IMG/VR virus record: IMGVR_UViG_3300029927_000028
Coordinates: 1-33,958 of that record
Source of the DNA: a virus
DNA length: 33,958 bases
Strand: one strand, 5' to 3'
Shown here: one piece after another, positions 642 to 33,958 of the stretch
How the letters are laid out: the number at the start of each line of letters is the position of its first letter
Position numbering within the stretch: the stretch's first letter is position 1
Translations under genes and position numbers: made by a program
Notes under the pieces: model-generated
Databases searched by the model: none
Seen by the model: the letters and a program-made list of their open reading frames with translations, nothing else
What the model was told of the DNA's origin: nothing

Positions 642-672
642 TCTCTCTCTCCTTTGTGTTTCAGGCATAGCT

Positions 673-1164
673 CTACATCTCTTCGCCCATTAATTTCTTC
701 AGTGAAGGTTCTCGCCAGTCTGTATCGTCGTCGTTGCACTTTCCCATGTTGCAGCTTGCACAAAGAACTTGCAGGTTGCTTAGTTTTAATTCGAGGTCGG
801 GTCTGTGCTTTCTAGGTTTTATATGGTCTACATTAAGGACTGCGCCGTAGTGTTTAGAAGCTCCGCACAATTCACATTTACCGTTATTAAACTTCAAAGC
901 TTTGTAACGTAATTTCTTCCAGGACATGCTTCTGTAAAAGTTATCACGGTATTTAGGCGAACCCTTTTTTGCCTTGTGCTTCTTCTTTTTTTTAGGAGGC
1001 GCACTAGCTTTACGCGCACAAAGGCTGCATATTTTTCTTGATCCGTTTGCGCTCATTGAACTCACATTTAGATCCACACCACTATTTTCTACATTGCACC
1101 ATGATTTTCCTTCAGGGCTTAAAATGTGTTGTTTACCTAGTTTCCTACTGTTCCATATATACAT
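673..1164 (-). CDS. HNH homing-type endonuclease (163 aa)
   Basis: The C-terminal half is a clear HNH nuclease domain. C97xxC100 and C135xxC138 form the structural zinc site, D113-H114 (NVDHIKPRKH) is the first catalytic strand, and N130 (LSNLQVLC) is the central asparagine. The N-terminal part has a second CxxC pair (C46, C49) and a lysine-rich stretch at about 58-67 that probably contacts DNA. Free-standing phage HNH enzymes nick or cut DNA and often act as homing endonucleases. The ribosome-binding site is weak (AGGA, 9 bases before ATG), unlike most neighbours. The gene follows a 473-base structured non-coding region, which suggests that the two may form one mobile unit. Confidence 0.9.
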   Translation of the reverse strand: MYIWNSRKLGKQHILSPEGKSWCNVENSGVDLNVSSMSANGSRKICSLCARKASAPPKKKKKHKAKKGSPKYRDNFYRSMSWKKLRYKALKFNNGKCELCGASKHYGAVLNVDHIKPRKHRPDLELKLSNLQVLCASCNMGKCNDDDTDWREPSLKKLMGEEM

Positions 1165-1637
1165 CTGTAAGTTCCTAAAAACCTTTATCTTGTATGTCGT
1201 TGGTCATAGCTCTACCAACCAAGCTTATTAGAGCAAGGGGTAGAGCTTACCGGGCCATCTAAAAACCTTTAGAGCTTTGTAGTGGTCTTACGGTCAGCGT
1301 GATTAACGACACTCACGCCTCGAAGGTTCTTTCTTAGGGGCCATTCTCCCTATGCTAGCAAGACCATCCTTCTTTCGCTCTGGCCTGTTGACTGACGCTA
1401 GACACCACAGTAGTCAACTCATACACAAGAAATGCTGCGGTCAGCCAAATCTTGGGGTTTAGTCCTTGGGAAGTGTTTTGTCTGAAATAGACACCGCGCC
1501 CAGTAAGCGGTTCCAGTGGGTAGAAATGGGGAGCAGAAAGGACTGGGGCCTAACGTTCAAGAGCTATCTCTAGCTCCCCGTTACATATTGACCACATACG
1601 AGGTCAAAACGTGTTGCATGCATATAGTATTATTTAG
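1165..1637 (-). ncRNA. Candidate structured RNA upstream of the HNH gene
   Basis: These 473 bases hold no credible gene but many perfect inverted repeats. They are 1208-1216/1239-1247 (9 bp), 1297-1302/1313-1318 (6 bp), 1387-1393/1412-1418 (7 bp), 1561-1566/1571-1576 (6 bp, closing a GAGA tetraloop on the minus strand) nested inside 1551-1555/1579-1583, and 1588-1593/1602-1607 (6 bp). A 12-bp direct repeat, CTAAAAACCTTT, occurs at 1175 and 1259. On the minus strand short motifs in the order GCGGT, ACCGCAGC, GACTA, AAGGATGGTC resemble the P, Q, R and S elements of a group I intron, with GCGGT/ACCGC and GACTA/TGGTC able to pair as P4 and P7. P3 and P8 could not be placed, the 7-bp hairpin competes with P7, and no split exon gene is evident. 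The intron reading is therefore tentative; the structured nature is better supported. Confidence 0.45.
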
Positions 1638-1904
1638 TTAGTCTTCGTGCAAGTTAATTTTTGATGAACCTTTAATTACTAAATCTATCGCCCTTACTAG
1701 CTCATCTTTCAGCCATTCGGATGCATCATCAATAAAGTTATGGACGCCATCCGCATTGCTATCTATGACAATGCCACCAAACTTTAATGCCTTGTTGCAA
1801 TCAGTCATGGTGATTAAAACACTATCTTTGCACGCTTCTATTTTAATGGTTGGTGTTAAGGATATGCTTTTCGTTGGTGATTTTTCTATTACGTAGTTGG
1901 TCAT
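1638..1904 (-). CDS. Hypothetical 88-aa early protein
   Basis: The ATG at 1904 overlaps the TGA of the 36-residue membrane gene and follows AGGATGAGAC. The protein (MTNYVIEKSPTKSI at its start) looks like a small soluble beta-rich protein with an acidic C-terminal half. No family is recognised. It is the last gene before the structured non-coding region. Confidence 0.7.
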   Translation of the reverse strand: MTNYVIEKSPTKSISLTPTIKIEACKDSVLITMTDCNKALKFGGIVIDSNADGVHNFIDDASEWLKDELVRAIDLVIKGSSKINLHED

Positions 1905-6083: not shown

Positions 6084-6105
6084 GCAAACAGTCATCAGTT
6101 GTCGT
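6080..6105 (+). pseudogene. Orphan gene start: repeat family 1 with no gene behind it
   Basis: An ATG at 6080 overlaps the previous stop as ATGA and is followed by MSKQSSVV, the family 1 start. After that the plus strand is simply the antisense of the recombinase-like gene, whose stop codon (6095-6097) lies inside the repeat. The open frame continues to 6481 but reads as a shadow. It looks like a cassette whose body was replaced by the reversed gene. Confidence 0.6.
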
Positions 6106-6637
6106 ACTTGGCCGTGACACTCTCAAGCGTAATCCCTTTGCGATAGAGGTAGTTAGGAGCCACGCCAAGTTCGTCAGTGACTTCGCGCATAGACCAGCCT
6201 TGATGAATAAGCTTCTCAGCGCGCAGCAGGTCGGTAGCAGTGACCTTAACGGGAGCGCCGCCTTTTCTATCACCACGCATAGAACGTGCCTTGGCAGTCT
6301 GCCCCTTTTGCTTTTGCTTAAGGAACTCGCAGAACGTCGCACCATTAGCGCCAGGGTACAGGGTATCGCTAGCCACACAGTAAAGGTCTGCGCCCCGTTC
6401 ATCCAACTGTTTGAATACCTCGCCTGTAAGCTTACCAAGGATACGCTCAAAGGCTACGACAAGAATGTTTTTGTCACCTAAACGGCAGGCGTTGATTGCA
6501 TCAAGAATAGTATCAGGCTTTGATCTGAATATGTTGTCCTTCAGCACGCCAGCACCAACAAGCATTTGTTCCTGTTGATCGGCAGATGGGCCATAATTAA
6601 GAACCTGAATAAAACCTATTTTAAATCTTGAATTCAA
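6095..6637 (-). CDS. Serine recombinase-like protein lacking the catalytic serine (180 aa)
   Basis: The start is TTG at 6637, 8 bases after AGGAG; upstream in-frame codons would run into the opposing gene. The length matches gamma-delta type resolvases. The fold signature is intact: KIGFIQV at the first strand, D20 and Q22, GDKNILVVAFERILGK at the central strand, and a C-terminal helix-turn-helix (SMREVTDELGVAPNYLYRKG, 149-168). The active site is not: aligned to YARVSTSQQSLDIQ, the conserved arginine is Q11 and the nucleophilic serine is L13, and the DRLGR motif reads ERILG. It is therefore probably a DNA-binding regulator or architectural protein rather than a recombinase. It is the only minus-strand gene within the plus-strand block. 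Confidence 0.75.
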   Translation of the reverse strand: MNSRFKIGFIQVLNYGPSADQQEQMLVGAGVLKDNIFRSKPDTILDAINACRLGDKNILVVAFERILGKLTGEVFKQLDERGADLYCVASDTLYPGANGATFCEFLKQKQKGQTAKARSMRGDRKGGAPVKVTATDLLRAEKLIHQGWSMREVTDELGVAPNYLYRKGITLESVTAKYDN

Positions 6638-6638
6638 C

Positions 6639-6666
6639 TTGACAACTCCTACATATCTAGTACAGT
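6639..6666 (+). promoter_or_regulatory. Rightward promoter next to the recombinase-like gene
   Basis: TTGACA (6639-6644) and TACAGT (6661-6666) with a 16-base spacer point to the gene at 6714. It begins right at the start codon of the opposing gene. Confidence 0.5.
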
Positions 6667-6686
6667 AAATGTAATTGGTAACAAGA

Positions 6687-6714
6687 ATTGTATCATAAAG
6701 GAAAGATAAAGCAA
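6687..6714 (-). promoter_or_regulatory. Leftward promoter for the recombinase-like gene
   Basis: On the minus strand TTGCTT (6709-6714) and TACAAT (6687-6692) have a 16-base spacer. It faces the rightward promoter at 6639-6666, so the two start points fall within about 10 bases of each other and the promoters should exclude each other. Confidence 0.5.
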
Positions 6715-6965
6715 TGGGCATCCTTACACTCAAGTTAGACAATGTTGCGGGGCCTTCTATACGAGAGGGCTGTGACGAGCTTTGCCGTGTTGCAACCCTG
6801 CTGGGGGTGAATACTGAATTAAATATTAACGGCATAACGACCACTGCGTATCCTGGAACAACAGGAAATGATTTGTTCGCTGGTTATAGCCATGCGGTTA
6901 AAGTTAAGTCCACTTGGGCAATGGCCCGTCCGGCCAACAAACGCCCCCTGGAGACTGAGCAATGA
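6714..6965 (+). CDS. Hypothetical 83-aa protein ending in ANKRP motif
   Basis: The ATG follows AAAGGAAAGATAAAGCA. The protein begins MGILTLKLDNVAGPSIREGC. Its tail, PANKRPLETEQ, shares the ANK(R/P)P motif of repeat family 2. The stop overlaps the next ATG. It is opposed to the recombinase-like gene and could be its regulatory partner, but there is no recognised domain. Confidence 0.65.
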   Translation: MGILTLKLDNVAGPSIREGCDELCRVATLLGVNTELNINGITTTAYPGTTGNDLFAGYSHAVKVKSTWAMARPANKRPLETEQ

Positions 6966-33841: not shown

Positions 33842-33958
33842 TTGTCTCGCCCCCAGTATTCTCTTGTGGCTTCAGCAAGTGAAATTGCTTCATCGGTTCC
33901 GAGTAATGATCGCAAGAAGTCCGTGTATTGTGTGTCTTGTTCTATTATTTCCCGTTCA
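33838..33958 (-). CDS. Hypothetical 85-aa protein, split by the window ends (3' part)
   Basis: This is the C-terminal part of the gene that begins at 236 at the left end. Bases 33860-33958 duplicate 1-99 and 33838-33859 complete the frame. The TGA stop at 33838-33840 overlaps the ATG of the 223-residue replication-like gene. The function is unknown. Confidence 0.8.
   Translation of the reverse strand, partial: EREIIEQDTQYTDFLRSLLGTDEAISLAEATREYWGRDK
33860..33958. repeat. 99-bp terminal direct repeat, right copy
   Basis: This is the second copy of bases 1-99. Removing one copy leaves a circle of 33,859 bp. It contains the same part of the 85-residue gene as the left end does. Confidence 0.95.

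Follow-up and report, generated by a model that had tools for sequence, protein, structure and literature searches.

A candidate structured phage RNA with its own putative promoter, lying beside an HNH gene ahead of a replication operon

The window analysed here is the whole of the 33,958-base IMG/VR virus record IMGVR_UViG_3300029927_000028. Bases 1-99 recur exactly as bases 33860-33958. This 99-bp terminal repeat indicates that, despite its classification as linear, the record probably represents a complete genome, circular or circularly permuted, of ~33,859 bp; the genes at its two ends are contiguous. The best named relative of its terminase is that of the Pseudanabaena phage Pam1 (56.6%). 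A terminase scan brought out the IMG/VR contig L010, whose terminase is 92% and whose replication-initiation-like gene is 76% identical to those of the window. The same phage is also found as a 34146-bp contig (L091, JAESRW010000002.1) in a MAG labelled Flavobacteriales NORP269, which points either to a genuine host association or to mis-binning. Elsewhere in the window, a 249-aa ORF (6095-6844, minus strand) resembles by eye the N-terminus of a serine recombinase; searches of Pfam and PHROG gave it no match, and a 151-aa ORF on the opposite strand overlaps it. In L010, positions 2335-2820 encode a cysteine-rich protein of 161 aa that matches HNH/homing endonucleases weakly and may represent a second mobile endonuclease in this relative.

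The interval 1165-1637 had been singled out in an initial annotation as gene-free and rich in inverted repeats, and both descriptions hold. Each frame on both strands carries 8-12 stops, leaving no ORF, and there are ten perfect inverted repeats with arms of at least 6 bp against 3.45 +/- 1.84 in dinucleotide shuffles, none of 150 shuffles reaching ten. The GAGA hairpin reported there was also recovered (GAGCTA-GAGA-TAGCTC, 1576-1561, minus strand), as was the HNH gene adjoining the interval. The direct repeat exists as well, but it measures 13 bp rather than the 12 bp first given (CTAAAAACCTTTA, 1175-1187 and 1259-1271); 12-mer direct repeats occur at a mean of 0.002 in shuffles, and one of the two copies falls within the HNH cassette, outside the RNA described below. 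Over the full 473 nt, folding energy is lowered to a modest extent only (z -1.3 on the minus strand, -2.2 on the plus strand). Once the limits of the RNA are taken from the homologue, z for the sense strand becomes -2.15 (window) and -2.33 (L010).

This homologue lies at the same position in L010, in the gap preceding the small genes ahead of the replication-initiation-like gene: the two sequences, window 1466-1659 and L010 520-718, share 69% identity over 203 columns. The two phages have unrelated genes upstream of the RNA, and their small downstream genes display just a short C-terminal match, so that, judging from this comparison, the RNA is the stable element amid turnover of neighbouring genes. 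When viral and genome collections were scanned for patterns of its conserved blocks, the only true hits were L010 and the window's own phage (L091). The other loci inspected after these scans look like chance matches to unrelated sequence. With the covariance model R1 there was no match in 40 related phage records or in the Pseudanabaena phages Pam1 and Pan3, and in 395 genomes of one phylum nothing besides the window's own phage. Cyanophages with related terminases contain long unannotated gaps (L098 20813-21667 in Pan3, L097 35490-36043 in Pam1), and the model had no match in these either. By blastn against phages, the window gave two weak 34-nt matches at E 0.1 and no homologue, and the L010 RNA gave none; blastn against plasmids gave no homologue. 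The features of the locus are collected in Table 1.

Table 1. Predicted and annotated features of the RNA locus, in window coordinates
Feature	Position	Strand	Basis or L010 counterpart
Sigma-70-like promoter, TTGCAC-17-TACTAT	1624..1652	-	In register with L010 TTGCAA-17-TATAAT (527-555)
Structured RNA, ~414 nt (L010 ~564-982)	1205..1618	-	Homology, alifold column shuffles, fold z-scores, no ORF
P1 hairpin at RNA 5' end (TTGACC/GGTCAA + ACGT/ATGT)	1584..1612	-	Hairpin in both predicted folds
P2 domain, invariant GGGGAGC/GCTCCCC stem	1528..1579	-	Long identical block, alifold structure
K2 hairpin, ACCGC/GCGGT	1493..1511	-	L010 TTCGC/GCGAA, two compensatory pairs
Hairpin GTCT/AGAC and conserved TCCCAA	1464..1492	-	Kept in alignments A2/A4
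Variable 3' half; tentative hairpins 1418-1387, 1318-1297, 1247-1208	1205..1463	-	L010 hairpins 779-804, 874-897, similar spacing
11-bp direct repeat copy 1, GTAGAGCTATG, RNA 3' edge	1205..1215	-	Single L010 counterpart GTAGAATTATG
HNH endonuclease gene, inserted cassette (simplest reading), outside RNA	673..1164	-	PF01844, E 5.7e-9
11-bp direct repeat copy 2, GTAGAGCTATG, end of HNH cassette	666..676	-	Repeat search

The conserved 5' part of the RNA covers ~160 nt, and the two sequences support a fold in which the hairpin P1 is followed by a domain, P2, that would be locked to a second hairpin by kissing loops. P2 is predicted to be a three-way domain enclosing the hairpin AGAG-ATAG-CTCT and a loop-bearing hairpin, K1 (1551-1539), whose loop CCCAGT would pair with the loop ACTGGG of K2; the L010 counterparts are CCCGAT and ATCGGG. 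Compensatory changes with respect to L010 are thus seen in both stem and loop-loop pairs. For shared helices of 6 bp carrying two or more compensations, the observed count was reached in 0.35% of 2,000 column shuffles (it beats 1993 of the 2000), and at least one such helix appeared in 1.6% of 2,000, this covariation being based on few changes since the distinct members known are two, the window phage and L010. Alifold energies for three alignments gave z values from -3.2 to -4.2, better than all 200 shuffles. An 11-bp pairing between 1508-1498 and 1255-1245 (one G-U pair) was dropped, as it is absent from L010 as a conserved pairing. A long-range closing helix, TTCTACC/GGTAGAG, could form in both phages; it competes with local hairpins and is energetically costly in the window. 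The 3' half, ~250 nt, is noncoding and poorly alignable with L010. It is structured in each predicted fold but its own fold scores are weak, and taken alone in L010 its fold z-score is non-significant.

The site lies between recombination genes (Erf, NinB) and the replication-initiation-like gene, a setting which would suit a replication-linked element: an RNA primer, a copy-control RNA, or a DNA origin with repeats that mimic RNA structure. We consider this improbable. The compensatory changes extend to loop-loop pairs, antisense strands fold less well than the sense strand in both phages, and no iterons were seen in the repeat search.

The HNH gene is absent from L010 at the RNA locus. Window 676-637 aligns with L010 969-1009 at 83%, directly past the end of the L010 RNA. 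Because the homologue has no HNH gene and the flanking 11-bp repeat is single-copy in L010, the simplest reading of these alignments is that the gene would be a later insertion, an unrelated mobile cassette of ~539 bp (~1204-666) placed immediately behind the RNA. Adjacency in the window had raised the idea of an HNH-associated RNA or guide (HEARO/IscB-like), or of a mobile unit combining RNA and HNH gene. This is already contradicted and very unlikely: L010 carries the RNA without the nuclease and, conversely, relatives of the HNH protein (~37-58% identical) occur in other phages, the RNA model having no match in any searched record that carries one. Moreover, the protein consists of a short HNH alone, Pfam giving no second nuclease domain, and there is no HEARO match. 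An HNH insertion beside an RNA can thus mimic an RNA-nuclease system.

Because an HNH ORF adjoins the structured RNA, and because of motifs taken as a group I-like core, the locus had been read as a possible self-splicing intron, a degenerate one of group I (or another kind), with a homing ORF. Rfam gave no group I/II signal at E<=10 in the window or in L010, and at gathering and permissive thresholds none of its families, group I and HEARO included, matched the RNA. No split gene or ORF was found, and the upstream flanking genes are unrelated between the phages, therefore there are no conserved exons; the RNA also has its own putative promoter and exists without the HNH gene. The intron reading is largely refuted already, and we give it hardly any weight. 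Of the original interpretation, the structured RNA has stood, through homology and covariation, while the intron, the HNH-associated RNA and the mobile RNA-ORF unit have not. We regard a real structured RNA that is independent of the HNH gene as very probable.

How is this RNA expressed? The window promoter would have its -35 element at 1652 and its -10 element at 1629-1624, with a predicted start near 1618, just ahead of P1. The L010 copy scores 10/12; the -10 of the window is weak and the scan calls instead an overlapping 9/12 site at 1657-1629, these promoter calls, like the terminator calls, being consensus matches no commoner than in shuffles. On the sense strand, the consensus scan found nothing resembling a terminator between the 3' end of the RNA and the downstream genes, nor a second promoter-like site in the stretch that separates the RNA from the replication gene. 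In L010, the 3' edge of the RNA lies ~15-20 nt from the ribosome-binding site of the next gene. The next gene in line is replication-initiation-like. Because of the promoter at the RNA start, the lack of such sites before the replication gene and the proximity of the ribosome-binding site in L010, we favour a leader acting in cis.

Our preferred reading as a whole, to which we assign a probability of about 40%, is that of an uncatalogued structured phage RNA, with its own promoter, that serves as cis-acting leader of the replication and downstream operon. It would be transcribed from the sigma-70-like promoter on the minus strand, from 1618 to 1205. We suppose that the 5' kissing-loop domain works in cis, on the transcript as it emerges, and that it may control read-through into the downstream genes, by antitermination like that of HK022 put or as an attenuator; this mechanism is put forward tentatively.

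Alternatively, and nearly as likely, the main rival is a stand-alone 'ornate' noncoding RNA of the phage, trans-acting or multimerising in the manner of GOLLD and ROOL, made from its own promoter and matured by processing. A processed RNA of this kind would give the same appearance as a leader. Its length, its promoter, the kissing loop and the phage location would all fit, as would its persistence while flanking genes turn over, and kissing loops also hold GOLLD and ROOL, themselves large RNAs of phages (PMC12286853). On the other hand, no terminator was found, Rfam gave no GOLLD, ROOL or OLE match, the RNA is shorter than GOLLD and ROOL, and the tRNA/tmRNA search found no tRNA gene in the window; the kissing loop can also be intramolecular. 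A bolder proposal, which we hold to be rather unlikely, is that of a new family of large phage RNAs, distinct from put, GOLLD and ROOL, whose 5' core locked by kissing loops would modify RNA polymerase or form an RNA-only complex.

Only a few large structured RNAs are known in phages, and most have no assigned function. The one described here combines defined ends with a conserved promoter and a kissing-loop core, all predicted, the last being testable, and it outlives the turnover of neighbouring genes. With HEARO/IscB omegaRNAs and group I introns bearing HNH ORFs it shares only the adjacency of RNA and HNH gene, since here the HNH gene appears dispensable and is missing in the relative; there is neither an Rfam match nor an IscB-type nuclease, neither a group I core up to E 10 in either phage nor homologous exons on both sides. 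The likeness to GOLLD and ROOL is greater: a large phage noncoding RNA, a kissing loop and a variable half. It differs from them by its shorter length and by the lack of a covariance model match and of a tRNA island, and oligomerisation would be hypothetical here. The closest functional precedent is putL of HK022, a structured RNA that follows a sigma-70-type phage promoter directly and precedes an operon (PMC9378689), an arrangement that the predicted promoter reproduces at our locus. The put RNA is ~70 nt with two stem-loops (PMC9378689), whereas the RNA here, for which antitermination is our own proposal, would span ~414 nt and have another architecture, a conserved domain of ~160 nt built on the three-way P2 and its kissing loops.
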